From: Zopfochytrium polystomum
Lineage: Eukaryota; Chytridiomycota; Chytridiomycetes; Chytridiales; Chytridiaceae
Length of the DNA stretch: 64,000 bases
Reading direction: 5' to 3'
Assembly (NCBI GenBank): GCA_025765615.1
Contig: JAIVFJ010000177.1
Location: 62,001-126,000 of the forward strand
In this document: positions 9,360 to 55,191 of the stretch, one piece after another
Layout: each line of letters begins with the position of its first letter
How positions within the stretch are numbered: the stretch's first letter is position 1
The notes under the pieces: generated by a model
Database searches by the model: none
What the model saw: only the letters and a program-made list of their open reading frames with translations
What the model was told of the DNA's origin: nothing
Made by a program: the position numbers and the translations under genes

Positions 9360-10353
9360 GAAAACAGAGTGTGAGACCAGTGAGAATCGTAATAAGAAAA
9401 ATTGAGAGAGGGCAGGGAGGTCTGGACTGTGGAGGGGAGTCAGTTGTTTGGAGATGGGTTGAGTTGTTCAACTGATTCCTGGTTAGTGCCAGAAAAAGCA
9501 GCGAGAAGGCGCAAAACTGTTTCTTTGATGGGTGATTGCCCGCCGTTAGATCCAGCAATAAAACGGTCGACGCCCTGCATCTTTTCTCGTCGCTCATGCC
9601 GTAACTGCCGAGAAAAACGAGCGGGAGAATGCAAGGGGGGGAAGGGTGCGCGGATACAGGTGCAGGGCAGTGCGTCAATTGAGTCCTTTCATTTGTTGTG
9701 TGTGTGGCGGCGCGCCTCCTCCGCCAAACAACATCGTCGCTGTCCTAACCCTTCCGCCCGCCCCGCGCTTGATCGACATCGTCCTTGAACAAAGCCGAGC
9801 GCTGTTTATACTGCGTCCCTTCCATCCCCGCAGTGCGTGGTCAAGATGGTGCAAGTCGTGCTGGTCGACGACGACGCCCGTTTGCGAGGTCTCGCGGAAA
9901 ACAATCCCACAGCTTCTCTTCGTCCAGCCCGTCTGCTCGCGCTGCGCGACGCGCAACCAGCGGCGTCCCCGGGACGTCCCCCGATCGCGACATCGATCGG
10001 CTCCACGCGGACAGGCGGGAGAGCGATGGCCAGTGCGGAGCTTTCCTTTTTGGCCATTGCCATCGCGACAGGCGCAAGAGGGAGCTCGAGGCGGAGTGTG
10101 GACTTGGTAGTGGCGGCGTTGGTAATTGGAGGCGTCGAATCCAACCGACCGTTTCACGAATAGTAGCGGCTTGCCCGGTCCAGTGTGTAATTTATGCAAC
10201 GGTCCTGGTTGTCGCGCGGCGTCGTCGTGGTCGTTCGAGATCGCCACACGTGAGTGCTTGCAACGCGATGCGACGAACGAAGACGCGAGTTCGATCGATC
10301 GAGGGTTGAGGAGGCCCCCCTTACACCACACCACTCACTATTTACAAACCAGA
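9360..10353. other. Intergenic, unresolved long open frames
   Basis: Several overlapping open frames cover 9640-10330 on both strands. None shows a recognisable motif and all are Arg/Ala-rich in the manner of GC-rich shadow frames. The F-box gene promoter should lie in the last few hundred bases. Confidence 0.3.
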
Positions 10354-11867
10354 ATGGGCAACAATACCCCCAACACCCCCGATCGCGACACCAGATCCGC
10401 CGCTGCGCCAACAGCCAACGCCCCACCACACCTTCGCGATCACCCAGCTGCCGACCAGCGCGACCTCCTCTCCCGCCTGGCCCCCGAAATCGCCCATCGC
10501 ATCGTCAATTACGTTGCAGACCACCGCTCCCTCGGCCGCCTCTGCTGCGTCTCCAAGCTGTGGTCCGTCCTCGCCTCGCGCGACGCACACTGGCAGTCAT
10601 TGTTCCTCGGGCAGTGGGAAATGCCGCGGATGCCAGCGCGGCGTTTGCGAGCCGCTGGAAACGAGACCCGCGGCGCGGAAGCGGGCTGCGGAAGTCGGAA
10701 CGATCCAGCTGAAGCCGCAACTCCCGTCATGGAAACCCTCGGCTCGGACCCTGGCGGCAGCAGCATCGATCCAGCTACAGCCATGCCACCGATCGAGGAC
10801 GTGGCTTGGAAGAAGCTGTACGAGTACAGGCTGGCGCTTGAGCGACGATGGACAAATGGGCTACCAGTGAGGAGAGAGTTTCCGCTCGACTCGATGATCG
10901 TCTGTCTTCACTGGAAGTACATCGTCAAAGGTGACATAACGGGATCGCGAAGCCTCCACGGCTATACAGTCGTGCAGCGATCGGACTTGCGCACCATTCT
11001 GTCAATACCCACACCTCCTCATCTAGACGACTTTGTTCCCAAGGCTAAAGTCAATCCAGAAGGCACCGCCGTCCTTGTAAACGCGTGCAACAGCGGGACA
11101 TCGCTGCAGCTGTGGGACTTAGCTACAGGTAGTTGCAAGATGGTTATTACCGATCCCCAAGCCTCTTTCGACGCATATGGGTGGGTCGGCCACTTCATTT
11201 TCTCCGTGTCGAAGCACGGAGCCAAAGTGTGGGACGAATCTATTGGTACCTTGCTCCAGACTATTGAGAATTTTCCATATGGTATACGCTGGTGGAGCGC
11301 GAACGGGGAGAGGCTTCTCTCATTGTCGATCGACGGCACAATCCGCGTCTGGAGTCCGGAAACTGGGAGATGTGAACGGGCGACGATGCAAGCTGGCGAT
11401 CTTACCCACCAAGTTGAGTCCATCCACTTCGTGGCTGACGGAAAGCACGTCCTGGTCGCCAGGCCCGCGTACGTGTTTGTCAACAGGCCGGTGAAAATTT
11501 CCGTGTGGAACGTCGAGACAGGCTACGAGGTGTCGTCAATCACCACGGAACTAGGGGGTAGTTATCATACGATTGGGATGAACGGAAGACGAATCTTTGG
11601 CGCTTTGTGGCAGAAAGTTGAACTGTGGGACATTCCTTCTGGAAGGAAAGTGTGCTGCATTAAGGAGCCTGCTGGTTTAAGGATTGGGCGGCTGGTTACA
11701 AGCACCGCCATCGCCTTTTTCAATCAGGTGAGTCAAAAATGAGAAGTCGTCAGCTACAATTGTAAAAGTTAAGTGCTAATCATTCTCAATTTCTTCCTTG
11801 ATAGCGCAAGCAAGTTGAAACGCTCCTTGATTTTGGATTTGGCATACCCTATTCAAGTCACTTTTGA
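10354..11867 (+). CDS. F-box protein with WD-like repeats
   Basis: Exon 10354-11727 joins exon 11805-11867 across a 77-nt GT-AG intron that has a GCTAAT branch-like motif. The product is 478 residues. The F-box is at about 37-85 (LLSRLAPEIAHRIVNYV, then LCCVSKLWSVLAS and HWQSLF). This is the Skp1-binding element of SCF ubiquitin ligases. A Gly/Ala-rich linker follows, then degenerate WD-type blades ending in LQLWDL, AKVWDE, IRVWSP, ISVWNV and VELWDI. The likely role is substrate recognition by a beta-propeller in an SCF complex; the substrate is unknown. The ATG at 10354 is chosen because the coding style of the open frame changes there; the same frame stays open further upstream to 10126. 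Confidence 0.85.
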
Positions 11868-25857: not shown

Positions 25858-28800
25858 TCATCTCCCCCTTTTAGGCCTCTTCTGCAACTTGGTGGGGTAC
25901 CTGGTCTTGAACTCGAGCAGAAGGTCTTGGCAGTGAGTGAGGTTTGACTCAGGCTCCCAGGTGTTGTCGGCATCTGAGTAACCTTTCCACTTAACAAGGA
26001 ACTTGAGTGTCCTTCCAAACCACTTGGCATCCAAGATTTGTTCAACCTCAAATTCCTCTTCACCTTCTACCTCAACTGGAGGAGGAGGAGGAACAACTCT
26101 GCCTGGAATGGAATTGGCCACAAACTTCTCTAAAAGGCTGACATGGAAAACTGGGTGGATCTTCATGGATGCAGGGAGATCCAGCTTGAAGGTGACTGGA
26201 TTGATTTGCTCCAAGATCTTGAAAGGACCCAACTTGAGGTTGTCTAGCTTGGGACTTGGTCTTTTGGTCTGCAAGTTCTTCCTCAGAAGCCAAACTTGCT
26301 GACCCACAGCAAGGTCATGGTCCATTCTGTGAGTGTTGGCAAATCTTGAGGCATCTTCTTGGGCTTGCTTCAGGGTGGAGTCCAGGAAGGTGCTGATGAT
26401 CTTGAGCTTATGCAAGTGTGAAGCCACAGCAGGAGCTTGGACATTGGATAGGGTCTCTTGTCCCACAAGGTCTCCTCTTGGATTGAAGCCATAGGTTGCA
26501 AAGAAGGGAGATAGCTGGGTGCTTGAGCGGAGAGAATTGTTGAGAGCAAATTCTGCCAGTGGTAGGAGGGTGGGCCAATCATCCTGTTGATAGCTGACAT
26601 AGCACCTCAAATACTGCTCCAGAGTCTGGTTTGTTCTTTCTGTTTGTCCATCAGTCTGAGGGTGATAAGCAGTTGACAGTTGAGACTTGATTCCAAGGGC
26701 TACTGTGAGTGCTTTCCAAAATTGAGATCTGAACTGTGGTCCTCTGTCACTGACGATTGACTGAGGCAGCCCATGGAGCCTGAATATGTGCTGCAAAAAC
26801 AGGTCTGCTGTTCCTTGTGCATCTATATTCTCAGTGCAGGGGATGAAATGGGCCAACTTTGTCCTTCTGCAGATGACAACAAGGATAGAGTCAAATCCAT
26901 GGGATGGGGGCAGTTTCACAATGAAGTCCATGGATATTGATGACCAAGGGCTGATGGCAATTGGGAGGGGCTCCAGAAGTCCATAGGGCTTGTGTCTGCT
27001 GGATTTGTTTCTTTGACAGGTTTCACAGCTGCTGACATAGTTCTTGATGTACTTCCTCATGCCTGGCCAGTAGAAGTCTCTGGAAACAAGCTCATATGTC
27101 TTGTGCTCTCCTGGGTGTCCAGCTGTTGCTGCATCATTCCTTGTCTTGAGTATCTCAAGTTTTTCCTCTTCTTGGCTGATTTGAATCTTGTGAGGCTTGG
27201 GATCCTTGGAAATAGCATGGGCCCACACACTGTCAGGAAGCAATGAAAGGTGTGTCTTGGATGGTGGGGTGAAACCATCTCCCCCTTCAGGTGCAAGGTC
27301 TGTTCTTCTTGACAGGGCATCAGCCACAGTGTTAAGGTGGCCAGGAGAATAGCACAGCTTAAAGTCATACTCAGAGAGCAGTTCAGCCCACCTGGCATGC
27401 CTCTCCTTGAGCAACCTCCTTGCCCTGAAGAAGGTGAGGTTCTTGTGATCAGAATAGACAGAGATGCCTTTAGAACCAGCCAAGTAGTGTCTCCAGAATT
27501 TGAATGCTTCCACAATTGCAAGCAACTCCTTGTCATGGACTGTGTAGTTACACTCAGCACTGTTCAGCTTCCTGGAGTAATATGCCACTGGATGCAGAGG
27601 AGCAGAGGGGTCCTGAGAGCTTGGCTGGGACAGAACAGCACTGAGGGCATAGTCTGAGGCATCAGTTTCCAAGGTGAAGGGAAGCAAGGGATCCACATGC
27701 TTAAGGAGTGGTGCACTTGTGGTTGCTGTCTTAAGAGCTAGCCAGGCTTGCTCTGCTGCTGGGGTCCATTCAAACTTGGTGGTCTTCTTGGTGAGATCAG
27801 TGAGAGGCTTGGCTATGGCAGAATAGTTGGCAATGAAGATTCTGTAGAAGTTGCAAAACCCAAGGAAGCTTTGAACATCCTTGATTGAATTTGGAGCCTT
27901 CCATTCAAGAATAGTTTGGATCTTGTCTGGTGCCATGGAGATCCCTTTGTCAGACACAATGAACCCCAAAAACTCAATGGAGGTCTTGTGGAATTCACAC
28001 TTCTCCAGCTTTGCATAGAGGTGATGCTGTCTGAGTCTCTCCAAGACAGTCTTGACATGTCCCATATGGCTTGCAGTGTCAGATGAAAATACCAGGATAT
28101 CATCCAGGTAGACAATGACAAAAAGGTCCAGAATATCCCTGAAGATGTCATTCATCATGCCTTGGAAAATAGCTGGAGCATTGGTAAGTCCAAAGGGCAT
28201 GACCAAGTACTCAAAGTGACCGTATTTGCATCTGAAGGCAGTCTTCCATTGATCCTGGGGCTTAATTCTGACCAAATTGTAGGCACCTCTGAGGTCAATC
28301 TTGGAAAATATCCTTGCATGGCTCAGTTTGTCCAGTAATTCAGAGATGAGAGGCAGTGGATAGCGGTTCTTGACTGTCATCTCATTGAGATCTCTGTAGT
28401 CCACGCAGGGTCTCAGTCCCCCATCCTTCTTCTTGACAAAAAAGATGGGAGCTCCAGCTGGAGACTTGGAAGGTTGGATGAATCCCTTGTTCAGCATTTC
28501 TTCAATGTATTCTTGGAGGGCCTTGGCTTCTGGTGGAGAGAGGTGGTACAGTGGCTTGAAAGGTGGGCTGCAAGTTTCATCCTTGAGTGGAATTTCACAG
28601 TCATAAGGCCTCTGAGCTGGTAGCAGGTGTGCCTTGGTCTTGGAAAACACATCAGCATAAGGGAGATATTCTTTTGGTAGCTTGGATGCCAGCAAAAGGT
28701 CACTCTTCAGCAGTGGGGCATGAATTCTTGACTGGGAACTGTGATTCTTGAATCTTTGACTGAGAGTTCTGTTCTTGGCAAAGACTGTGAGCTGTGGAAC

Positions 28801-29400
28801 TTGAATCTTGAATGTGGACTGTGAACTGTGGTACTTGAATCTTTGACTGTGGGTTCTGTGAACTAGAGTCTTGGCCATGACTGTGAGCTCTGTGAGCTCT
28901 ACTTGAATCTTGACTGTGAACTGTGAACTGTGGAACTTGAGTCTTGGCTGGCTGTGAATCTTGAATCAAGGGCTTGAGAGCATGAGACTTGGGGGCTTGA
29001 CTTGAGTTTTGGGTGACTGTTCCGATTGGTGGAGGTTGGACTTGACCAGTGACCCAATCAATGGCAGGGTTCTGGGCTTGCAGCCATGGTAATCCCAGGA
29101 TGACAGAGAATGTGGGTGAGCCAAGATCCAATACTTCCAGGTTGACCATGGATGGTGGAAAGTTCTTGGATGTGGAGGTTTAGCTTGGTTTCATGGCTGA
29201 TTTCCTTGAACAGAGCATGATTGGCAAAGTGGACCTTGAGGGGTGTGGATTTCTTGATGGTGGGAATGGCACAAGACTTGGCAAGGGTGGCATCAATGAT
29301 GTTGTAGGATGATCCAGAGTTGATAAGGGCCTTGGTTGTGATGGTTGACTTGGGTGAGAGTTGAATCTTGACATCCATGGTGAGTTGGTGGGGCTTGGAA
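25858..29400 (-). pseudogene. pol: pol of the older chromovirus (protease-RT-RNase H-integrase-chromodomain), frameshifted
   Basis: The long 3' frame (to 25858) has intact RT (LPFGLTNAPAIFQ-type block, YLDDILVFS), RNase H (LETDASDYAL), an HHCC integrase finger (GHPGEHKTY then CETCQRNK), the integrase D-D-E (SMDFI, SDRGPQF, QTERTN) and a C-terminal chromodomain (FLVKWKGYSDADNTWEPE). Upstream it is broken. Compared with the plus copy there is an extra A near 29150 and a deletion of about 25 bases near 28700, each shifting frame. The protease reads INSGSS (near 29315), replacing the catalytic Asp of the plus copy's IDSGSS with Asn. This copy cannot make a functional Pol by itself. Confidence 0.9.
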
Positions 29401-29473
29401 TCTGAGGTGTTTGTGGTGCTGGTGGTGGTGATGAAACAGGGGCAGCTTGGAGGAGGGTCCAGGGAATTGCCCC

Positions 29474-30397
29474 TCAGTGAGCCTGGACCTGGGAGTTTGG
29501 GTGCTTCTTCCTTGGGCAGTCCTTGACAGCGTGTTCCTTGGAGCCACAGTAGAAACACAGTCCCTGCTGGGCCCTCCTTGTTTTCTCCTCTTGGCTCAGA
29601 GGACCCTTAGGAAGTGTCTCAACTGCATCCACTTGCATGGGTTCAGGAACTGTGAGAGCTTGAGGAACTGGGGTAGGTCTTGATGTAGTTCCTACTTGTC
29701 TTTGCTTCAGCCTCTTGGAGTAGAGTCTGTTGTCAATCTTGATGGCAAGGAGAATGTACTCTTCCAAGGTCTCAGGGATGTGCAGAGACTGGGAGAGCAT
29801 GTCTTGGATGGACTCATGGAGACCATCATGGTACAGCTCCATCAGAGCTGCATCATTGTATCCAGAGTCTCTGGCTAGTTGCTTGAATTGGTTGGTGTAG
29901 GCCACACAAGATTGCTTTCCTTGCTTGATATGCTTGAGCTTGGATCTTGCTGTCCAAGATGCGTAGGGGTCACCAAAGGTAGCCTGCAGCCCTTCCCAGA
30001 GCTCTTGCAGGGTGGTGGGTGTGCTTGGGAGAGATCTGTACCATGATTGAGCTTGACCAGACAGGAGGGTGCTTGTGAAAAGAACCTTGACTTGCTCACT
30101 GGGGAATCTTGAAGGTTGGAGAAGGATGACATTCTCCACAGTGGCCATAAAGTTCCTGAGGTCTTTGGCCAGCCCAGTGAACTTGTCAGGGCTGGGAACC
30201 TTGGGCTCTCTTGCTTGGTTGGCTTGGGGCAGGGGAAGAGCTTGATGTTCTTGTTGGTGAAGTTGTTGTTGAAGCTGGTGCTGCTGGTGAAGGACTTGTT
30301 CTTGAAGTTGGTGTGTCTGTCTTGAAAGGGCTTGTAATTGGTCCATCAAGGCTTGGAAGGCAGTTGCATCAGGGAAGGTGTTGTTTGGGTCAAACAT
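29474..30397 (-). CDS. gag: gag of the older chromovirus
   Basis: 307 residues, intact. A Gln-rich N-terminal third (about 20-70) may form a coiled coil. The central retrotransposon gag region includes YRSLPSTPTTLQELWEGLQ and ARSKLKHIKQG. A single CCHC zinc knuckle lies near the C-terminus (CFYCGSKEHAVKDC) and binds RNA for packaging. The stop lies inside the frameshift stem described for the plus copy. Confidence 0.93.
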   Translation of the reverse strand: MFDPNNTFPDATAFQALMDQLQALSRQTHQLQEQVLHQQHQLQQQLHQQEHQALPLPQANQAREPKVPSPDKFTGLAKDLRNFMATVENVILLQPSRFPSEQVKVLFTSTLLSGQAQSWYRSLPSTPTTLQELWEGLQATFGDPYASWTARSKLKHIKQGKQSCVAYTNQFKQLARDSGYNDAALMELYHDGLHESIQDMLSQSLHIPETLEEYILLAIKIDNRLYSKRLKQRQVGTTSRPTPVPQALTVPEPMQVDAVETLPKGPLSQEEKTRRAQQGLCFYCGSKEHAVKDCPRKKHPNSQVQAH

Positions 30398-30437
30398 GAT
30401 GGCAGAGAGTAGTAGGAGAGGGTGAAGTGAATTATGA

Positions 30438-30750
30438 TGTCAGGAACATGGCAGGACATGGCAAGGCAAGGCAGAGAAGGAACTGAGAGGAGTGATGATT
30501 GTATTGGAAACAATAATTCACTTGAGGGATGGGACAGGTCCCCCATCCCCCTTTTATACCTTTTGAGAGTCTTCCTTGTCAAGACTCACAGAAAGTTCCA
30601 GAAAGAGCAATTAGTAATACAATGATACCAATGGTACCAACGACAACAAGACAAGTCAGGAAAGCAAAGAAGGTTCCAGAAGGTTCCACAAGGTTCCATG
30701 AAGGAATGTTCTAGAAGGTTCCAGAGGTTTCCAGAGGGTGATTCATAACA
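30438..30750 (-). repeat. 5' LTR of the minus-strand chromovirus
   Basis: 313 bp, TG..CA ends. The minus strand has a TATAAAAG box (about 30550-30558) followed by the presumed transcript start near AAGTGAATTAT. Confidence 0.93.
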
Positions 30751-31785: not shown

Positions 31786-32138
31786 TGTTATGAATCACCC
31801 TCTGGAAACCTCTGGAACCTTCTAGAACATTCCTTCATGGAACCTTCTGGAACCTTCTGGAACCTTCTAGAACATTCCTTCATGGAACCTTGTGGAACCT
31901 TCTGGAACCTTCTTTGCTTTCCTGACTTGTCTTGTTGTCATTGGTATCATTGGTATCATTGCATTACTAATTGCTCTTTCTGGAACTTTCTTGGAGTCTT
32001 GACAAGGAACACTCTCAAAAGGTATAAAAGGGGGATGGGGGACCTGTCCCATCCCTCAAGTGAATTATTGTTTCCAATACAATCATCACTCCTCTCAGTT
32101 CCTTGTCTGCCTTGTCCTGTCCTGCCCTGTTCCTGACA
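31786..32138 (+). repeat. 5' LTR of the younger chromovirus
   Basis: 353 bp, TGTT..GACA. Compared with the older element's LTR it contains an extra ~40-bp tandem copy of the CATTCCTTCATGGAACCTT segment (31817-31895). GAACCTTCTGGAACCTTCTAGAAC words recur; they contain inverted GAAnnTTC elements resembling heat-shock-factor sites. The TATA box is at 32023-32029. Confidence 0.95.
32023..32058 (+). promoter_or_regulatory. LTR core promoter: TATA box and inferred transcript start
   Basis: TATAAAAG at 32023-32030. A start about 30-35 bases on falls at 32053-32058, immediately at AAGTGAATTAT, the segment complementary to the primer-binding site. Confidence 0.65.
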
Positions 32139-32140
32139 TC

Positions 32141-32151
32141 ATAATTCACTT
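32141..32151 (+). promoter_or_regulatory. Self-priming primer-binding site
   Basis: ATAATTCACTT begins two bases after the 5' LTR end. It is an exact reverse complement of 32058-32068 (AAGTGAATTAT) at the predicted 5' end of the element's own transcript. No tRNA 3' end complement is apparent. The same pair is conserved in the minus-strand copy. Confidence 0.75.
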
Positions 32152-32178
32152 CACCCTCTCCTACTACTCTCTGCCATC

Positions 32179-33102
32179 ATGTCTGACCCAAACAACACCT
32201 TCCCTGATGCAACTGCCTTCCAAGCCTTGATGGACCAATTACAAGCCCTCTCAAGACAGACACACCAACTTCAAGAACAAGTCCTTCACCAGCAGCACCA
32301 GCTTCAACAACAACTTCACCAACAAGAACATCAAGCTCTTCCCCTGCCTCAAGCCAACCAAGCAAGAGAGCCCAAGGTTCCCAGCCCTGACAAGTTCACT
32401 GGGCTGGCCAAAGACCTTAGGAACTTCATGGCCACTGTGGAGAATGTCATCCTTCTCCAACCTTCAAGATTTCCCAGTGAGCAAGTCAAGGTTCTTTTCA
32501 CAAGCACCCTCCTGTCTGGTCAAGCTCAATCATGGTACAGATCTCTCCCAAGCACACCCACCACCCTGCAAGAGCTCTGGGAGGGGCTGGAAGCTACCTT
32601 TGGTGACCCCTACGCATCTTGGACAGCAAGATCCAAGCTCAAGCATATCAAGCAAGGAAAGCAATCTTGTGTGGCCTACACCAACCAATTCAAGCAACTT
32701 GCCAGAGACTCTGGATACAATGATGCAGCTCTGATGGAGCTGTACCATGATGGTCTCCATGAGTCTATCCAAGACATGCTCTCCCAGTCTCTGCACATCC
32801 CTGAGACCTTGGAAGAGTACATTCTCCTTGCCATCAAGATTGACAACAGACTCTACTCCAAGAGGCTGAAGCAAAGACAAGTAGGAACTACATCAAGACC
32901 TACCCCAGTTCCTCAAGCTCTCACAGTTCCTGAACCCATGCAAGTGGATGCAGTTGAGACACTTCCTAAGGGTCCTCTGAGCCAAGAGGAGAAAACAAGG
33001 AGGGCCCAGCAGGGACTGTGTTTTTACTGTGGCTCCAAGGAGCATGCTGTCAAGGACTGCCCAAGGAAGAAGCACCCAAACTCCCAGGTCCAGGCTCACT
33101 GA
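32179..33102 (+). CDS. gag: gag of the younger chromovirus
   Basis: 307 residues, differing from the older copy's Gag at only a few positions. It forms the particle and packages element RNA. The Gln/His-rich N-terminal segment, the central gag domain and one CCHC knuckle (CFYCGSKEHAVKDC, near residue 280) are intact. The frame ends at 33102 within the loop of a predicted hairpin, downstream of an in-phase slippery heptamer at 33075. Confidence 0.94.
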   Translation: MSDPNNTFPDATAFQALMDQLQALSRQTHQLQEQVLHQQHQLQQQLHQQEHQALPLPQANQAREPKVPSPDKFTGLAKDLRNFMATVENVILLQPSRFPSEQVKVLFTSTLLSGQAQSWYRSLPSTPTTLQELWEGLEATFGDPYASWTARSKLKHIKQGKQSCVAYTNQFKQLARDSGYNDAALMELYHDGLHESIQDMLSQSLHIPETLEEYILLAIKIDNRLYSKRLKQRQVGTTSRPTPVPQALTVPEPMQVDAVETLPKGPLSQEEKTRRAQQGLCFYCGSKEHAVKDCPRKKHPNSQVQAH

Positions 33103-33120
33103 GGGGCAATTCCCTGGACC
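33075..33120 (+). promoter_or_regulatory. Predicted -1 ribosomal frameshift signal (gag to pol)
   Basis: The heptamer C CCA AAC (33075-33081) is in the gag zero frame. A 5-base spacer follows, then an 8-bp perfect stem GGTCCAGG (33087-33094) with CCTGGACC (33113-33120). The gag stop lies in the 18-base loop. The overlapping protease frame is -1 relative to gag, which fits. Confidence 0.7.
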
Positions 33121-33189
33121 CTCCTCCAAGCTGCCCCTGTTTCATCACCACCACCAGCACCACAAACACCTCAGATTCCAAGCCCCACC

Positions 33190-36100
33190 AACTCACCATG
33201 GATCAAGATTCAACTCTCACCCAAGTCAACCATCACAACCAAGGCCCTTATAGACTCTGGATCATCCTGCAACATCATTGATGCCACCCTTGCCAAGTCT
33301 TGTGCCATTCCTACGATCAAGAAATCCACACCCCTCAAGGCCCACTTTGCCAATCATGCTCTGTTCAAGGAAATCAGCCATGAAACCAAGCTAAACCTCC
33401 ACATCCAAGACTTTCCACCATCCATGGTCAATCTGGAAGTATTGGATCTTGGCTCACCCACATTCTCTGTCATCCTGGGATTACCATGGCTGCAAGCCCA
33501 GAACCCTGCCATTGATTGGGTCACTGGTCAAGTCCAACCTCCACCAATCGGAACAGTCACCCAAAACTCAAGTCAAGCCCCCAAGTCTCATGCTCTCAAG
33601 CCCTTGATTCAAGATTCACAGCCAGCCAAGACTCAAGTTCCACAGTTCACAGTTCACAGTCAAGATTCAAGTAGAGCTCATAGAGCTCACAGTCATGGCC
33701 ATGACTCTTGTTCACAGAACCCACAGTCAAAGATTCAAGTACCACAGTTCACAGTCCACATTCAAGATTCAAGTTCCACAGCTCACAGTCTTTGCCAAGA
33801 ACAGAACTCTCAGTCAAAGATTCAAGAATCACAGTTCCCAGTCAAGAATTCAAGCCCCACTGCTGAGGAGCACAACAACCTGGACCCATCAGACCTTTTG
33901 CTGGCATCCAAGCTACCAAAAGAATATCTCCCTTATGCTGATGTGTTTTCCAAGACCAAGGCAGACCTGCTACCAGCTCAGAGGCCTTATGACTGTGAAA
34001 TCCCACTCAAGGATGAAACTTGCAGCCCACCTTTCAAGCCACTGTACCACCTCTCTCCACCAGAAGCCAAGGCCCTCCAAGAATACATTGAAGAAATGCT
34101 GAACAAGGGATTCATCCAACCTTCCAAGTCACCAGCTGGAGCTCCCATCTTTTTTGTCAAGAAGAAGGATGGGGGACTGAGACCCTGTGTGGACTACAGA
34201 GATCTCAATGAGATGACAGTCAAGAACCGCTATCCACTGCCTCTCATCTCTGAATTACTGGACAAACTGAGCCATGCAAGGATATTTTCCAAGATTGACC
34301 TCAGAGGTGCCTACAATTTGGTCAGAATTAAGCCCCAGGATCAATGGAAGACTGCCTTCAGATGCAAATACGGTCACTTTGAGTACTTGGTCATGCCCTT
34401 TGGACTTACCAATGCTCCAGCTATTTTCCAAGGCATGATGAATGACATCTTCAGGGATATTCTGGACCTTTTTGTCATTGTCTACCTGGATGATATCCTG
34501 GTATTTTCATCTGACACTGCAAGCCATATGGGACATGTCAAGACTGTCTTGGAGAGACTCAGACAGCATCACCTCTATGCAAAGCTGGAGAAGTGTGAAT
34601 TCCACAAGACCTCCATTGAGTTTTTGGGGTTCATTGTGTCTGACAAAGGGATCTCCATGGCACCAGACAAGATCCAAACTATTCTTGAATGGAAGGCTCC
34701 AAATTCAATCAAGGATGTTCAAAGCTTCCTTGGGTTTTGCAACTTCTACAGAATCTTCATTGCCAACTATTCTGCCATAGCCAAGCCTCTCACTGATCTC
34801 ACCAAGAAGACCACCAAGTTTGAATGGACCCCAGCAGCAGAGCAAGCCTGGCTAGCTCTTAAGACAGCAACCACAAGTGCACCGCTCCTTAAGCATGTGG
34901 ATCCCTTGCTTCCCTTCACCTTGGAAACTGATGCTTCAGACTATGCCCTTGGCGCTGTTCTGTCCCAGCCAAGCTCTCAGGACCCCTCTGCTCCTCTGCA
35001 TCCAGTGGCATATTACTCCAGGAAGCTGAACAGTGCTGAGTGTAACTACACAGTCCATGACAAGGAGTTGCTTGCAATTGTGGAAGCATTCAAATTCTGG
35101 AGACACTACTTGGCTGGTTCTAAAAACATCTCTGTCTATTCGGATCACAAGAACCTCACCTTCTTCAGGGCAAGGAGGTTGCTCAAGCAGAGGCATGCCA
35201 GGTGGGCTGAACTGCTCTCTGAGTATGACTTTAAGCTGTGCTATTCTCCTGGCCACCTTAACACTGTGGCTGATGCCCTGTCAAGAAGAACAGACCTTGC
35301 ACCTGAAGGGGGAGATGGTTTCACCCCACCATCCAAGACACACCTTTCATTGCTTCCTGACAGTGTGTGGGCTCATGCTATTTCCAAGGACCCCAAGCCT
35401 CACAAGATTCAAATCAGCCAAGAAGAGGAAAAACTTGAGATACTCAAGACAAGGAATGATGCAGCAACAGCTGGACACCCAGGAGAGCACAAGACATATG
35501 AGCTTGTTTCCAGAGACTTCTACTGGCCAGGCATGAGGAAGTACATCAAGAACTATGTCAGCAGCTGTGAAACCTGTCAAAGAAACAAATCCAGCAGACA
35601 CAAGCCCTATGGACTTCTGGAGCCCCTCCCAATTGCCATCAGCCCTTGGTCATCAATATCCATGGACTTCATTGTGAAACTGCCCCCATCCCATGGATTT
35701 GACTCTATCCTTGTTGTCATCTGCAGAAGGACAAAGTTGGCCCATTTCATCCCCTGCACTGAGAATATAGATGCACAAGGAACAGCAGACCTGTTTTTGC
35801 AGCACATATTCAGGCTCCATGGGCTGCCTCAGTCAATCGTCAGTGACAGAGGACCACAGTTCAGATCTCAATTTTGGAAAGCACTCACAGTAGCCCTTGG
35901 AATCAAGTCTCAACTGTCAACTGCTTATCACCCTCAGACTGATGGACAAACAGAAAGAACAAACCAGACTCTGGAGCAGTATTTGAGGTGCTATGTCAGC
36001 TATCAACAGGATGATTGGCCCACCCTCCTACCACTGGCAGAATTTGCTCTCAACAATTCTCTCCACTCAAGCACCCAGCTATCTCCTTTCTTTGCAACCT

Positions 36101-36735
36101 ATGGCTTCAATCCAAGAGGAGATCTTCTGGGACAAGAGACCCTATCCAATGTCCAAGCTCCTGCTGCGGCTTCACACTTACATAAGCTCAAGATCATCAA
36201 CTCCTTCCTGGACTCCACCCTGAAGCAAGCCCAAGAAGATGCCTCAAGATTTGCCAACACTCACAGAATGGACCATGACCTTGCTGTGGGTCAGCAAGTT
36301 TGGCTTCTGAGGAAGAACTTGCAGACCAAAAGACCAAGTCCCAAGCTAGACAACCTCAAGTTGGGTCCTTTCAAGATCTTGGAGCAAATCAATCCAGTCA
36401 CCTTCAAGCTGGATCTCCCTGCATCCATGAAGATCCACCCAGTTTTCCATGTCAGCCTTTTAGAGAAGTTTGTGGCCAATTCCATTCCAGGCAGAGTTGT
36501 TCCTCCTCCTCCTCCAGTTGAGGTAGAAGGTGAAGAGGAATTTGAGGTTGAACAAATCTTGGATGCCAAGTGGTTTGGAAGAACACTCAAGTTCCTTGTT
36601 AAGTGGAAAGGTTACTCAGATGCTGACAACACCTGGGAGCCTGAGTCAAACCTCACTCACTGCCAAGACCTTCTGCTCGAGTTCAAGACCAGGTACCCCA
36701 CCAAGTTGCAGAAGAGGCCTAAAAGGGGGGGATGA
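33190..36735 (+). CDS. pol: pol of the younger chromovirus, one frameshift in the protease leader
   Basis: The open frame from about 33190 to 36735 encodes protease (ALIDSGSSCNIID), RT (YLDDILVFS), RNase H (LETDASDYALGAVLSQ), integrase with HHCC finger and D-D-E triad (SMDFI, SDRGPQF, QTERTN), and a C-terminal chromodomain (FLVKWKGYSDADNTWEPE). The segment from 33424 alone is 1103 residues and intact. A two-base deletion relative to the older copy (ATGGATGTCAAG there, ATGGATCAAG here, near 33199) moves this frame into register with gag instead of -1, so frameshifting at 33075 would now run into a stop at 33281. The chromodomain probably directs integration to marked chromatin. Confidence 0.93.
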   Translation, partial: NSPWIKIQLSPKSTITTKALIDSGSSCNIIDATLAKSCAIPTIKKSTPLKAHFANHALFKEISHETKLNLHIQDFPPSMVNLEVLDLGSPTFSVILGLPWLQAQNPAIDWVTGQVQPPPIGTVTQNSSQAPKSHALKPLIQDSQPAKTQVPQFTVHSQDSSRAHRAHSHGHDSCSQNPQSKIQVPQFTVHIQDSSSTAHSLCQEQNSQSKIQESQFPVKNSSPTAEEHNNLDPSDLLLASKLPKEYLPYADVFSKTKADLLPAQRPYDCEIPLKDETCSPPFKPLYHLSPPEAKALQEYIEEMLNKGFIQPSKSPAGAPIFFVKKKDGGLRPCVDYRDLNEMTVKNRYPLPLISELLDKLSHARIFSKIDLRGAYNLVRIKPQDQWKTAFRCKYGHFEYLVMPFGLTNAPAIFQGMMNDIFRDILDLFVIVYLDDILVFSSDTASHMGHVKTVLERLRQHHLYAKLEKCEFHKTSIEFLGFIVSDKGISMAPDKIQTILEWKAPNSIKDVQSFLGFCNFYRIFIANYSAIAKPLTDLTKKTTKFEWTPAAEQAWLALKTATTSAPLLKHVDPLLPFTLETDASDYALGAVLSQPSSQDPSAPLHPVAYYSRKLNSAECNYTVHDKELLAIVEAFKFWRHYLAGSKNISVYSDHKNLTFFRARRLLKQRHARWAELLSEYDFKLCYSPGHLNTVADALSRRTDLAPEGGDGFTPPSKTHLSLLPDSVWAHAISKDPKPHKIQISQEEEKLEILKTRNDAATAGHPGEHKTYELVSRDFYWPGMRKYIKNYVSSCETCQRNKSSRHKPYGLLEPLPIAISPWSSISMDFIVKLPPSHGFDSILVVICRRTKLAHFIPCTENIDAQGTADLFLQHIFRLHGLPQSIVSDRGPQFRSQFWKALTVALGIKSQLSTAYHPQTDGQTERTNQTLEQYLRCYVSYQQDDWPTLLPLAEFALNNSLHSSTQLSPFFATYGFNPRGDLLGQETLSNVQAPAAASHLHKLKIINSFLDSTLKQAQEDASRFANTHRMDHDLAVGQQVWLLRKNLQTKRPSPKLDNLKLGPFKILEQINPVTFKLDLPASMKIHPVFHVSLLEKFVANSIPGRVVPPPPPVEVEGEEEFEVEQILDAKWFGRTLKFLVKWKGYSDADNTWEPESNLTHCQDLLLEFKTRYPTKLQKRPKRGG
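36721..36731 (+). promoter_or_regulatory. Polypurine tract
   Basis: AAAAGGGGGGG directly before the 3' LTR, inside the last codons of pol. It is the second-strand primer. Confidence 0.85.
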
Positions 36736-48773: not shown

Positions 48774-51700
48774 ATGACAAGCAAAGTGAATTCCTGGACT
48801 GTGGTTTTTGAGCTTGGTGATACTGGAAGGAAGATTGAAGTTCCTGCCAGCACCAGCTTTGCCGACCTGCACCAGCTTGTGGCTTCACGATGGAATATCA
48901 CTGGTCCCATTGAATTGGTGTATGTGGACTCTGCAACTGGTGGTAAAATGATCCTCGATGTGAAAGATGACCTGGCAAGCCTGCTTTCTCAGCATTTGAA
49001 GTGGAAAGTACGTTTGCTTCTCATCAGTTGTTCTGCTTTTTTCATTTCTTTCTGAAAAATTTTTTTAAGGTGCTTGCTGTTCCTGTTTCGAACCTACCTG
49101 GAGTGACCCAGACTGTTCCCACTGCATCTGGAGCAAGCACAACCACGGCTGCTGCTGGTGGTGGTAATGGCACTGTTCCAGTTGCTAACGCTCCTGGAGT
49201 TCCCCATCCCACTGCTGCATCGGCTGATGGTGATAGCTTTGATGAGAGCCTTGTGCCTGACAAGGGTGAGTTGTGCAGTTCAGGAATGATCATCAGAGAC
49301 TCACCCTTGTTGTTTCAAACTCTCCTTCAGATAAGTGGATGGGGTTGATTCCAAGAGATTGGGAGTGTGAGACTGGTGTTCAAAGGCATCCTTTCTTTAT
49401 CAGGTCTGAGCATTGCATGTTTTGTTCCAACAATCATCTGACCCTCAAACAGCTACCGCCAGGCATCAGAAACCGTGTTTGCCAAGGAACTTTTCCATGA
49501 ATTAGAGAAAGCCTTGTTGAAATCTTTCAGTGGCACTGCTCTTCCCAAAGAGACCAAAATGAGCGGTCTCCATGCTTTTTGGGATGCAAAGTGCCTTGCT
49601 TTTGGCCAGAAGTGGGACATCAACTTCATGTCAGGCTTGTATCACTCTTCAGTTATTATTCTGCTGTGTTCTGATTCGAGCATGAAGTGGATGCTTGAGG
49701 CTGACAAAAAGCTGGACAATTGCTTGTTGGAGGTGAGCTTGTTGATCTGATTTCTGATGTTGCTAAACGTGACTGTTAGTGGGAACTTGCACTTCAGATG
49801 AAGGAAGAGAGAGGAGTTGACATCCTGCCAGTTCTTCTTTCTGAGCAGACGACTGCAACTCTCGACGATGGGAGGAAGGAGTTGTTGGAGAACAAGTTCA
49901 GCACTTTTGATTACTCCAAGTTTCCAAAATCACTTCATGCTCATCCTTTGAGCCCTCGGCGCCACACTGTGTCTGAAACTGTCAAGATGGTGCTGGAGCT
50001 GAATGGCCCCTTTGCAGATAGAAAAAGCGATGATGTCCTCAAGTATGCACTTGCATTTTGTGTTTGTTGTGTTTCTTGAACCCTCCTCACACAACTTTAA
50101 CTTTGGATATACAACAGGGTTGTCACTGTTGCAAGGAATGTGTACAGTCGTAGGAAAGCTGAAATGAAGACTCTCTATGCAAGTTCAGATATTTCACTCT
50201 CCAGACCCAGATTGAATGAATTGGAAACGTGGCTGACTCCCCTGTCTGACATCATGGACGATGAAAGGCAGGCCCTTCTGAAGAATTTGCTTTCTGGATC
50301 CAGGCAGTGGCTCCTCAACAGAGTATTTCAGTTCCTGTCACCAGACAAACCCTCAGCAGCCAGCACCAACAGGGTGATGTGGTTGAAGGGTGTGGCTGGA
50401 GTGGGCAAGTCTGTGATGGCTGCCATGGTCTCCAGAGAGCTGGAGGCTTTTGGAATGCTTGGTGGCATGTTCTTTTGCAAGCATGACGATGAATGTCGCA
50501 ACAGTGCTTGCAACCTGGTCCTGACCCTGGTTTTCAGTCTAGCAAAGTTTAGCTTTCAGTTTGGGGTAATTCTTCTTCAAGTCAAGCAAGACAATCCAGA
50601 TATTTTGTCCAGATCTGTGTTTGAGATGATGAAGGTGCTGCTTATTCAGCCACTGCAGAGTGTTGTTGACACCAAGCAGCTGGATGTGCCTGTTGTGCTT
50701 GTTGTGGATGCCCTGGACGAGTGTGGTGCTGTTGGCAAGAGGAGTGGCATTCTGTCACTGTTTTAGGAACTGAACAGGATGCTTCCTTCAAATGTGAAGA
50801 TGCTGGTGACTGGACGCCCCGAAGAAGATATATCAAAGGCCTTTGAAAAGATTCCAATCACTGAAATTGAGCCAACTGCCGAGGAGAACACTCAAGACCA
50901 GATTGAGTACACACAAGCTTTCCTCAAATCCTTGAATGCTGCACAACCTGTGGTTGATGAGGGATCCAAGCTTCTTGTTTCAAAGTCCTCTGGGATTTTT
51001 GTCTGGCTTGTGACTGCTTGCACGTACCTGAGGGACTCCTGCACTGAGGTCATCTCTCTTGACAAGATCAACGCCCTGCCAGAGGGTGACCAGATGAATG
51101 GCCGCATTGACACAATGTATGACAGAATCTTTGCTGGCATTTGGGACTCAGCCAAATTGAGCCAGTTGGAACCTTTGCTTCACACAGTGCTGTCCATCAT
51201 TGTCCTTGCCTATGAACCGCTGACTGCAGCAGCCATGGTGTCGCTGCTGGATGGGAAGAGCCCTGGAAACGTGAAAAGATGCATCGGAATGCTTGATCCG
51301 ATCCTTGTACTTGACGGCTCCTCCAAGAAGATCAGGATTTTCCACAAGTCTGTGAAGGATTACCTGACTGACCCATCGCGATGTGGGCTGTCTGTCAGGA
51401 CTGAGGTGAATGAGGGTCATGCACGATTTGCAAGACTGCGCATCAGTGCACTGAACAAGAATCTAAAGTTCAACATGTGTGATCTGCCATTTGACGAATT
51501 TCACACTGAAATCCCTGATTTCAATGAAAAAGTTGCAAAAGGGATCCCAGAGCTTGTCCAATATGCAGTGAAGCACTTCTGGGAGCACTGCTTTGACGCC
51601 TCAAGGGAATGCTCCCCAAAGGTGTTTTCTGTGGAGAATCAGACGACCAAAAACAGTCTCTTGGATGAGTTGCAAGATTTTCTTGAAAATCATGGACATC

Positions 51701-53817
51701 ACTTCATGGAGGCCTGCAGCTTGTTGGACTCGCTCAACCTGGTGATTCCTGCCATGACAAAACTTCAGACTTTGTTGAATGGTTCTGCAAAGAAAAGCTT
51801 GGAAACGTTGATGACGGACATGAAAAGAGTTTTGCAAAAGTTTCTCATTCCACTCAAGGCATCAGCTTTGCAGGTCTATTTCACTGCCATTCCTTTCTCT
51901 CCAAGTGGCTGTGAATTTCACAGGAAATTTGAAGGGATGTTGCCAGCAGATTTGTTGTGCCCAAGAGTTGTCAAAGGGCAGCCAACAGCTTGGCCTGCTT
52001 GCATGAATGTCCTTGAGGGACACAACGAGTGGGTCTTCACTGCAGCATTCAGTCCCGATGGGCAGTTTATTGTGTCTGGAAGTGTTGACATGACAGTCAG
52101 GATTTGGAATGCATCCACTGGCCAGGAGATGCACAAGCTGGAGGGACACAGCAACGGAGTCTGGTCTGCAGCATTCAGTCCTGATGGGCAGTTTGTTGTG
52201 TCTGGAAGTGCTGACAATACAGTTAGGATTTGGAATGCATCCACTGGCCAGGAGATGCACAAGCTCGACGGACACACCAGTTCTGTCACCTCTGCAGCAT
52301 TCAGTCCTGATGGGCAGTTTGTTGTGTCTGGAAGTGGGGACGGGACAGTCAGGATTTGGAATGCATCCACTGGCCAGGAGATGCACAAATTCGACGGACA
52401 CACCAGTTCTGTCACCTCTGCAGCATTCAGTCCTGATGGGCAGTTTATTGTGTCTGGAAGTTTTGACAAGACAGTCAGGATTTGGAATGCATCCACCGGC
52501 CAGGAGATGCAGAAGCTGGAGGGGCACACCAAACAGGTCAGGTCTGCAGCATTCAGTCCTGATGGGCAGTTTGTTGTGTCTGGAAGTGATGACATGACTG
52601 TCAGGATTTGGAATGCATCCACTGGCCAGGAGATGGACAAGCTGGAGGGACATAACAAAAGGGTCAACTCTGCAGCATTTAGTCCTGATGGGCAGTTTGT
52701 TGTGTCTGGAAGTGATGATATGACAGTCCGGATTTGGAATGCATCCACTGGCCAGGAGGTGGACAAGCTGGAGGGACATAACAGAATGGTCACCTCTGCA
52801 GCATTCAGTCCTGATGGGCAGTTTGTTGTGTCTGGAAGTTGGGACAATACAGTCAGGATTTGGAATGCATCCATTGGCCAGGAATGCAAGAAGCTGGTGG
52901 GACTCTCTGATGTTGTTTACTCTGCAAAATTCAATCCTGATGGGCAGTTTGTTGTGTCTGGAAGTGGGGACGGGACAGTCAGGATTTGGAATGCATACAC
53001 TGGCGAGGAGATGCACAAGCTTGTGGGACACACCAATTTAGTCATCTCTGCAGCATTCAGTCCTGATGGGCAGTTTGTTGTGTCTGGAAGTTTTGACAAG
53101 ACAGTCAGGATTTGGAATGCAACCACCGGCCAGGAGATGCACAAGCTGGAGGGACACACAGAACGTGTCTTCTCTGCAGCATTCAATCCTGATGGGCAGT
53201 TTGTTGTGTCTGGAAGTGATGACATGACAGTCAGGATTTGGAATGCATCCACTGGCCAGGAGATGGACAAGCTGGAGGGACATAACAAAAGGGTCACCTC
53301 TGCAGCATTCAGTCCTGATGGGCAGTTTGTTGTGTCTGGAAGTTGGGACAATACAGTCCGGATTTGGAACAGATCCACTGACAGAGCTGATTCAAGCTGG
53401 TTTAAGGAGGCGACCAAGGCCCACTGGCAGTTGATGCACACAATTAAATATTTCACTTTCACAGTAACTGATGGATTCAGTGCTGATGGGCGGTCTGTTG
53501 TTTTGAGGGACAAGGTTGGAACAGCAATTTGCATCAACCTTGCAACTGCTCTCCAATTACAAGAGAATGCTGGTTTTTCTGGAACTGTTTCTTGCAGCCA
53601 ACAATCGAGTTTTTGTGTTCGTGATGTGTCAGGGAGGAAACTGCAGGGTGGTAAAACTGCCTCTGTGTCTGTTATGAAAAATGGTGTTTGGTTCTCTCCC
53701 ACCAACACCAAATCCTTTTTCTGGCTTCCTCCTGAATTTCGATGTGGTCAACAATTCCTCACCAAACATTCAATTCTTCTCCTTGGCAGTGGCATTTCCT
53801 CTGTCATTCAGTTTTGA
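48774..53817 (+). CDS. NLR-type STAND receptor: PB1-like, TIR, NACHT, 11 WD40 repeats; one in-frame TAG
   Basis: Exons 48774-49007, 49070-49265, 49331-49403, 49453-49732, 49780-50042 and 50118-53817 join in frame to 1581 codons. Residues 1-78: PB1/ubiquitin-like (FELGDTGRKIEVP, then GPIELVYVDS). About 80-140: Thr/Ala/Gly linker. About 164-300: TIR domain, starting FISYR (166-170), with HAFWDAKCLAFGQKWD, VIILLCSDS, then LLEWELAL; E263 is the candidate NADase Glu. About 430-620: NACHT with Walker A GVAGVGKS (440-447), Walker B VLVVDALDE (to 550) and the TGRPEED sensor region. 982-1443: eleven WD40 repeats. TAG (50764-50766) falls at codon 565 between LSLF and ELNRM, where homologous NACHT domains continue without a gap. 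The likely role is intracellular non-self recognition with TIR signalling or cell death. The start could be in an upstream exon. Confidence 0.85.
52015..53400 (+). repeat. Eleven tandem 126-bp WD40-coding repeats
   Basis: Exact 42-codon periodicity from 52015. Each unit reads (E/D)GH, three to four variable residues, SAAFSPDGQFVVSGS, two variable residues, TVRIWNASTGQE and a short variable tail. Unit 8 is the most diverged (VGLSDVVYSAKFNPDG). Unit 11 loses the tail (NRSTDRAD). Confidence 0.95.
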
Positions 53818-55191
53818 TTTTGTTTCTGTTATGGAAAGCGTGTTTTTGTTGATGAGGCTTTGGAGGTTGTGGTTGTCCTGCCCTTCTGCTTCAGAGAGTG
53901 GCTTTGATGACTTGATGGCTTGGAGGGCTGATTGTGACATGAGACTGGTGCCAAAATTGCTCTGAAAGCATTGGGATTTTCATGCACGACAATTAACCTT
54001 GAGTTCTTTAGAGCCTCTTGAGTAGAGACACTTTGTTTCTTCCTGTCCTTTTTTTTTCTTTTTTTGGTTTTGTTGGCCCATGTTGCTTGTACATGGGAAA
54101 CAAAAAATCGCAGCACAAAGATGATACTGAATGGAGCCCTTTTTATGTGCTTTACAACAATTTGAGTTTGATTGGCGTAATGGAGCTGGACTTCTTTGCA
54201 TTCTTTGAGGTTCCCATTCTCTATCTGAATCTGGTGTGACGTTGGCAAAACTCATAATTCAATTCCAAAATCCAAACAAAGCCTCCAAAATTCAGTTGCA
54301 TTGGATGTTTGCAGTCGTCAAATGAGTCATTTTACCTTCTAATCCCCAACATCCTACCAGTGGTAGAAAAAAGGTTTCTTTTTTTTTCTCTTGCACTAGC
54401 TCTCGCAACTAAGCGTAAATTCCAATATGTAGTAAATTAGAAATACAAATACCCATTGCATTTTCTGTTTGCCACGCTCTTTTTTCGACGTGCTAGCACT
54501 CTTAGCATTCAGGGGAGACTTTCAAAGTAGACAAGGACAATTAGTTTTGTCAGGGTTACGGTTATTCGCAAGTCCTCCACACTAAATGCGCATCTGCACA
54601 ATCATCCTGGGCAGCTGCATTCCCTTCTTCTTTGAGGCAATGCAAGTCTCCTTAGAGATCTTGTCCTCAGCTTTGGCACTGTAGGGGCCCAAAAAACCAG
54701 CGACTATAAGCCCAAATCCACGGCTGAAATGTTCAAATCCCGTTGCTCTGCAGTGGGAATCAACTTGGGGTGCAGCCTCTCCAGCCTGTCCTTAACCCCT
54801 GAGCACTCCAAAACATGCCTCCTAGTGCATTTCTCTGCACAGTCTGCCCACACACAGGGTTGGTGGAACGCTACCATCCCAGCCAGGGTTAGGGTTCAGA
54901 AGACATCAGTCCCAGTTGTCTCAAGACCTATGGTTGTGCAGAAATGGTCTTTGTAGTGGCCCATCTTCTGGGGGTCAAGCGCACACTGGCTCCTATCTGA
55001 ACACGCCTTCTGACACTTGATGCGCTTGGCCTTCCCAGCAAAGTCGCACACAGCAGAGTCCTGAACAGCTGAATAACACGCTTCCTGTACTGCTTGATGG
55101 GAATCTTCACAATCTTGTTCCACTGACAAAACTGGATCCAGGCCATCGTCTGCCCCACAGGATCATCATCTGAGTGAGCCACAGCAGCCCT
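53818..55191. other. NLR 3' flank and unassigned sequence
   Basis: The minus strand at 55170-54930 shows DPVGQTMAWIQFCQWNKIVK in one frame and a Cys-containing tail in another. I do not recognise it; it may be a gene relic. The remainder is AT-rich with T runs (54048-54064, 54378-54388) and holds no supported gene. Confidence 0.35.

Follow-up and report, generated by a model that had tools for sequence, protein, structure and literature searches.

A PB1-TIR-NACHT-WD40 receptor family in the chytrid Zopfochytrium polystomum and a member carrying an in-frame stop codon

Results

The 64,000-nucleotide stretch analyzed here (the window), part of contig C177 in an 80.2 Mb draft assembly of Zopfochytrium polystomum, carries at 48774-53817 on the forward strand a six-exon gene with PB1, TIR, NACHT, and WD40 parts in that order. 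This gene is probably one copy of a large, fast-diversifying receptor family of the NOD-like receptor (NLR) type, and the copy in the window has most likely been disabled recently. The organism belongs to the Chytridiales within the Chytridiomycota (NCBI), in agreement with the flagellated fungus that a first-pass annotation of the same DNA had proposed as host. The features of the gene are as follows.

48774..49007, forward strand: exon 1, with the ATG and most of PB1 (residues 1-78); borders conserved in paralogs
49070..49265, forward strand: exon 2, with the final PB1 strand and a low-complexity linker (residues 79-143); borders conserved
49331..49403, forward strand: exon 3, with the start of TIR (FIS of FISYR); borders conserved
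49453..49732, forward strand: exon 4, with the body of TIR and, as final codon (49730-49732), E261
49780..50042, forward strand: exon 5, with the end of TIR (E263 at 49783-49785) and a linker toward NACHT; borders conserved
50118..53817, forward strand: exon 6, with NACHT, post-NACHT region, WD40 array, C-terminal tail, and stop codon TGA
50293..50895, forward strand: NPHP3_N/NACHT NTPase (residues ~408-608), PF24883 and PF05729 above cut-off
50389-50412, forward strand: P-loop GVAGVGKS, a NACHT motif, residue 440
50707-50721, forward strand: Walker B DALDE, a NACHT motif, residue 546
50764..50766, forward strand: in-frame TAG, codon 565; intact relatives have a sense codon at the same place
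52012..53397, forward strand: eleven WD40 repeats of 42 aa (126 bp); Tandem Repeats Finder period 126, 10.8 copies; variable at positions 5-7, 9, 25, and 27
53398..53814, forward strand: C-terminal tail of ~140 aa, outside the canonical repeats, with possible degenerate blades

The six exons join in frame, all borders follow the GT-AG rule, and the five introns measure 47-75 nt. The motifs FISYR (166), LLEWEL (259-264), GVAGVGKS (440), and DALDE (546), together with eleven WD40 units, are all present where the first-pass annotation had placed them. Exon 5 has two possible acceptors, before 49780 or before 49798, a choice that does not touch E261 because this residue is the last codon of exon 4. 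Among 27 paralogous loci aligned to the window gene (from the 69-locus list described below, its 19 nearest entries and its final 8), 19, reaching down to ~72% nucleotide identity, showed GT or AG at every border and a frame that remained open through NACHT; two of these (L036 and L037) are identical to each other, and L038 has a codon other than ATG at the aligned start. The remaining eight comprised seven with broken or misaligned frames and one beginning at a contig end. For 18 distinct open copies plus the window copy, the median pairwise ratio of nonsynonymous to synonymous substitution (dN/dS; 141-164 of 171 pairs kept) was 0.29 in PB1, 0.20 in TIR, 0.18 in NACHT, 0.22 in the post-NACHT region, and 0.61 in the linker. 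These ratios and the residue counts below omit L024, L025, L032, L033, L034, L042, and L044 (broken or misaligned frames), as well as L039 (contig end) and L037 (identical to L036). Because borders and frame are conserved in the paralogs and dN/dS is low in the domains, exons 1-5 and exon 6 appear to form one gene under purifying selection, and on this comparison we judge that the six-exon model is not a product of chance.

The borders, frame joins, and domain order of the earlier six-exon, four-part model were thus borne out, but its frame is not open: the in-frame TAG had been overlooked when an intact four-part gene was claimed. The TAG falls past Walker B (DALDE) and ahead of the NACHT motif VTGRPE and interrupts the reading frame there, with two stop-to-stop frames (50101-50766 and 50767-53817) meeting at it. 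The protein up to this point has 564 aa and contains PB1, TIR, and part of NACHT; with codon 565 being TAG, the four-part protein is not encoded by the sequence as it stands. The copy is otherwise undecayed, with no frameshift and the TAG as sole lesion in a 1581-codon frame, and its private changes, counted against codons on which L020-L023 agree, are five silent and three replacing. One other of the 69 NACHT loci found in the genome carries a TAG within the matched stretch. Reading of TAG as an amino acid in this organism was rejected, since no stop occurs in the matched stretch of 67 of the 69 loci or in 145 of the 150 NPHP3_N matches listed.

When the window copy was scanned with an X placed at the stop, its NACHT domain passed the cut-offs of PF24883 (E 2.2e-24) as well as PF05729 (E 1.1e-6), and Walker A and Walker B are both represented, by GVAGVGKS and DALDE. 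The architecture is not that of plant TNL proteins, as NB-ARC was not listed in the Pfam scan and WD40 repeats take the place of leucine-rich repeats.

The TIR match predicted earlier for the N-terminal region was confirmed by TIR_2, which scored 40.1 bits against a cut-off of 28 (E 5.9e-10) over residues ~165-285 of the window copy. The same profile matched nine of nine sequences at E 0.1 or better, including the Cladochytrium and Rhizophlyctis proteins, and in the whole Rhizophlyctis protein P0003 it fell below cut-off. In a PDB sequence search, the solved TIRs nearest to the family profile were SARM1 TIR domains (E 0.0015), and the HMMER alignment set E261, the first Glu of LLEWEL, on the catalytic glutamate of SARM1 in helix alpha-C, named E642 in a PDB title. 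A glutamate at the NADase position had therefore been correctly sought in LLEWEL, but the residue chosen, E263, lies two residues after the one aligned. Both E261 and E263 occur without exception in the 19 aligned copies, the window copy among them, and E261 is also conserved in the Cladochytrium and Rhizophlyctis relatives. From a structure model of residues 1-319 of P0007, another Z. polystomum protein, the TIR part alone was used because the PB1 part mostly had a predicted local distance difference test score (pLDDT) <50; this PB1-TIR fragment model matched the TIRs of flax L6, nematode TIR-1, RPS4, SNC1, and RUN1 at E < 0.001, and also a human TIR. By profile and alignment, we take the domain to be a genuine TIR domain.

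The PB1-like N-terminus proposed earlier is clear at the level of the family, where PF00564 matched 11 of 12 peptides (best E 2.5e-6), whereas the window copy alone remained below the Pfam cut-off (14.4 bits vs 23.6, E 0.038). A chance match was ruled out by these peptides together with a genome search, in which PF00564 gave 35 matches, all above the curated cut-off, with 17 just upstream of a family TIR or NACHT match and the other 18 away from such TIR/NACHT neighborhoods. Exon 1 of the window copy contains an acidic OPCA-like stretch (Y50-L67), and D52, G56, D62, and D65 are invariant in all copies of the PB1 alignment, which comprised 12 of the 20 open copies with the window included and L030 left out, as well as in 18 of 19 copies when L030, the exception, is counted. 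PB1 domains of the polymerizing kind (type I/II) combine an OPCA stretch with a beta-1 lysine. At the position aligned with K11 in beta-1 of NBR1, the 12 copies have V, I, T, or S; none combines the lysine with OPCA as polymerizing PB1 domains do, and the PB1 polymerization envisaged in the first-pass annotation has no footing in them. Because the lysine is missing, the domain more likely docks a partner than self-polymerizes, and it is most likely an acidic OPCA-type adaptor that would dock a putative basic PB1 partner rather than polymerize alone. The nearest PB1 sequence was that of plant NBR1 (E 0.051, not significant on its own), which has the beta-1 lysine that the chytrid family lacks, and the PB1 folds nearest to a structure model of exon 1 were those of NBR1, MEKK3, and PKC-iota.

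Of the other proteins compared, P0007 starts PB1-like (hhalign probability 92.5); its PF00564 score of 19.4 bits, obtained with the first 95 residues alone, is below cut-off, and the match was unlisted when the whole protein was scanned. Neither the N-terminus of Rhizophlyctis P0003 nor an inner stretch of P0008 matched the PB1 profile or any Pfam family, and the N-terminus of Cladochytrium replicatum P0002 does not line up with PB1. P0007 and P0008 were rejected as evidence for PB1 in a second independent genus, both being from Z. polystomum. On these comparisons, PB1 before TIR is established in one species only, Z. polystomum, among the proteins compared. A search with residues 1-349 had no match at E 0.001; words from the linker may have taken up its candidate list. 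P0008 itself has two TIR and two P-loop units in tandem and may represent two fused gene models.

Our genome search with the protein after the fifth intron revealed 69 NACHT loci, the closest three being 98% identical in protein; one more was added from the comparison of P0001, a Z. polystomum protein 100% identical to contig C118 in two pieces spanning its whole length. In this list of 70, at least 63 loci have a family TIR match no more than 1.2 kb upstream on the same strand, at least 33 have an upstream PB1 match, and at least 32 have both. The order PB1-TIR-NACHT-WD40, which the first-pass annotation had read as joining an animal/plant/bacterial-type TIR to a fungal sensor, is supported. 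L036 (C66) and L037 (C191) are identical over 4908 bp, reflecting either a recent duplication or an uncollapsed haplotype. Only three Z. polystomum family proteins were returned from the protein collection, compared with the 69 loci in the genome, and many of these loci are closer to the query than a 59% protein that the collection returned. The family seems largely unannotated, and repeat masking before gene prediction might explain the missing annotation.

Homology of the window copy to the near copies L021 and L022, whose compared DNA begins ~150-250 bases before the ATG, continues ~1.07 kb past the stop codon (53818-54885) and then ends. The first 783 bases of this segment match the start of contig C95 at 98%, perhaps a further copy cut by the contig end, and 35 bp on the 3' side of the gene (54564-54598) recur with 97% identity at no fewer than 22 other places in the genome. 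NPHP3_N matches in the genome number at least 150, and a second class of loci, in which TIR_2 adjoins NPHP3_N in frames of ~405 aa, is present in many copies (e.g., C57:327447-328568 and C98:201695-202817).

The sensor end of the gene provided stronger evidence for a receptor of the fungal allorecognition style than the first-pass annotation had offered. A repeat pattern with positions 3, 8, 13, 16, 26, and 32 fixed and 36 positions free to vary collected 234 repeats (219 distinct) from 27 loci, missing some: it found 10, 9, and 9 in L020, L021, and L022, where a profile finds 11, 12, and 12. By profile, the window copy also has 11 repeats, L023 and L027 have 12, and L026 has 25. Within 24 loci, L037 and those with fewer than five repeats (L029, L039) being left out, the positions most variable by non-silent change were 7, 25, 9, 6, 27, and 5, in that order, so that the four positions known from Podospora (7, 9, 25, and 27) are all among the top five; a blind draw of six positions from the 36 would include all four with a probability of 2.5e-4. 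In 23 of the 24 loci, nonsynonymous change (pN) at these four was greater than synonymous change (pS) at the remaining free positions; pN at those remaining positions was the greater in 1 of 24, and the 219 distinct repeats hold 195 residue combinations at the four. This pattern constitutes strong, but not formal, evidence for diversifying selection on the repeats.

In the leading 1.9 kb of exon 6, the identity of the window copy to L020, L021, and L022 is 98.8%, 98.4%, and 98.4%, respectively, yet of the eleven six-residue codes in its repeats, none recurs in L020, one in L021, and two in L022. Mean repeat identity within the window array is 84%; this similarity of 0.84 compares with 0.82-0.86 to the repeats of L020, L021, L023, L026, L027, and L030 and 0.68-0.82 to those of five more distant loci, and such similar values within and between loci do not decide on concerted evolution of the repeats. 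The ~140-aa tail is similar by eye in six of six paralogs whose 3' end was compared, and the repeat profile finds no clear further WD40 unit in it; by analogy with Podospora, it may form three blades.

Elsewhere in the window, two Ty3/Gypsy-like gag-pol elements (labeled by eye) lie at 25858-30439 on the reverse strand and 32137-36735 on the forward strand; they are mutually similar, opposite in orientation, and accompanied by matching short tandem arrays (25775/30668 and 31797/36747). A 538-aa open frame at 10126-11742 on the forward strand has an F-box-like stretch and WD-like repeats, again labeled by eye.

Discussion

How the TAG is to be understood determines what the window copy can do. 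We lean, by a modest degree, toward a recently disabled copy; alternatively, the copy would at most encode a truncated PB1-TIR protein unable to sense through WD40. That the TAG is the sole lesion in an otherwise undecayed set of domains would also fit an assembly or sequencing error, or one allele of a heterozygous site, in which case the window copy would be an intact receptor. The long near-identical stretches of the family are places where assemblies can err; single wrong consensus bases are, as far as we are aware, uncommon, and we regard this explanation as rather doubtful. A functional stop, yielding a 564-aa PB1-TIR-P-loop protein that would serve in signaling or as a sensorless helper TIR, in the manner of truncated plant TIR-NLRs, would be compatible with the position of PB1, TIR, E261, P-loop, and Walker B, all of which precede the TAG, and truncated TIR-NB proteins with PB1 are described in Arachis (PMC9786959). 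The frame beyond the TAG is nevertheless still open through the end of the WD40 array and just one other of the 69 loci has a TAG in the matched stretch, making a functional stop quite improbable. Removal of the stop by an unannotated intron is barely plausible. In-phase GT-AG pairs do exist, such as 50721-50777 (57 nt) and 50731-50766 (36 nt), whose excision would cost the receptor 19 and 12 codons, respectively, after Walker B, and the TAG lies within TTTTAG, an acceptor-like context. The same stretch is, however, open and aligned in paralogs; 36 nt is shorter than any of the five introns of the gene; the donors GTGTGG and GTTGGC do not resemble those of the five introns; and, taken together, the in-phase introns that would remove the TAG either delete Walker B, measure 36 nt, or measure 57-84 nt with atypical donors.

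Several observations weigh against our overall reading of a diversifying receptor family with a recently disabled copy in the window, beyond the lone lesion already mentioned. L030 is an open copy without the acidic end of PB1, and the exon-1 structure model is of middling confidence, its best Foldseek row being a Ras-binding domain and not PB1. FISYR is altered in a few copies, with R170 replaced by H or C in 3 of 19. The assembly behind the copy counts is a draft, L036 and L037 may be one locus, and 28 of the ~70 loci were read in sequence. At the variable repeat positions, the excess is only 1.1-1.5 fold over the silent rate of the same codons, and our counts do not amount to a formal selection test because pN and pS were counted pairwise and the repeats recombine.

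For intact members of the family, we would propose that the WD40 propeller, through copy-specific exposed residues, binds a foreign or altered protein, upon which the NACHT NTPase would switch and oligomerize, as is expected of its family. TIR domains brought together in this manner might hydrolyze NAD via E261, a residue placed by alignment, and this hydrolysis could lead to cell death or growth arrest. PB1 would meanwhile dock its putative basic PB1 partner.

Such a receptor family could alternatively serve self/non-self recognition at fusion, as Podospora HET-D/E do, instead of parasite sensing. The same 42-aa repeat, the same variable positions, and the same number of 11 repeats speak for allorecognition; heterokaryon formation is not known for chytrids, nor hyphal fusion for this fungus, which renders this role unlikely. 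The ~70 loci also far exceed the Podospora family, which has 10 members (PMC1805685). A broader proposition, which we advance tentatively as a possibility somewhat short of an even prospect, is that the hypervariable WD40 clamp serves fungi generally in sensing parasites or viruses, a role that would predate allorecognition or be independent of it, and that it is here equipped with a true TIR NADase at the place that HET has in Dikarya and with PB1 linking a putative partner. Viruses were detected in 16.4% of 146 Chytridiomycota isolates screened, and double-stranded RNA and total RNA were sequenced from Z. polystomum strain WB228, not necessarily the strain of this genome (both from PMC7482067).

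The presence of TIR in chytrid NLRs is already known, TIR-bearing NLRs in Chytridiomycota being stated in PMC9815663, whose sources include a 2020 chapter by Daskalov and others; nowhere does PMC9815663 use the word PB1. What appears to be new is a fungal NLR with PB1 ahead of TIR, the growth of the family to ~70 loci, and an HNWD-like hypervariable array on a true TIR receptor. In the published literature searched, PB1 on fungal NLRs was not found, the nearest report being the plant Arachis paper, and neither was an expansion to ~70 loci or a Podospora-type array on a TIR receptor. On TIR-bearing NLRs of chytrids or other early-diverging fungi, PMC9815663 was the one relevant paper that the searches brought up, the papers on chytrid genomes being judged by title. 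Fungal incompatibility genes have been argued to be recruited from the innate immune repertoire (PMC12881547), and such recruitment could be tested in a chytrid family whose true TIR is joined to a sensor bearing the HNWD signature. The family further connects TIR domains of the animal, plant, and bacterial type with the sensors of fungal NLRs, and it shows that a receptor family of this kind can be nearly missing from protein collections.

Compared with known systems, the family resembles the animal TIR NADases SARM1 and TIR-1 in its nearest TIR sequence and aligned glutamate. It differs from SARM1, which carries ARM and SAM domains, in having NACHT and WD40, both absent from SARM1. Among chytrid TIR-NLRs, Cladochytrium replicatum P0002 is a TIR-NACHT-WD40 protein 34% identical over 86% of the query; unlike the Z. 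polystomum family, it has no PB1 among the Pfam families listed for it (25 of 57). Arachis AsTIR19 likewise has PB1 at the N-terminus of a TIR-NLR, where it was proposed to oligomerize and is treated by its authors as an integrated domain, found in two proteins (PMC9786959); in contrast to the chytrid family, AsTIR19 is a truncated plant NB-ARC protein.

The family also resembles the HNWD proteins of Podospora anserina (HET-E, HET-D, and HET-R), in which NACHT is likewise followed by 42-aa WD40 repeats of high mutual identity, hypervariable at positions 7, 9, 25, and 27. In Podospora, these codons are under diversifying selection and map to the ligand face, with positions 8 and 26 conserved (PMC1805685 and PMC2873952), and reactive alleles have 11 repeats followed by three cryptic blades, modeled as two seven-bladed propellers (PMC12222747), a layout that parallels the 11 repeats and degenerate C-terminal stretch of the window copy. 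The N-termini and hosts differ: PB1 and a TIR_2-type TIR stand in place of HET, the host belongs to the Chytridiomycota rather than the Ascomycota, and ~70 loci are present as opposed to 10. TIR_2 was the sole Pfam match in the N-terminal piece, and with no HET domain found there, the chytrid family is not a member of HNWD. A remote relationship between HET and TIR has been proposed (PMC4986451). By analogy, the chytrid receptor probably works like one of the HET-E type with a true TIR replacing HET, and is itself a fungal NLR with a TIR domain.

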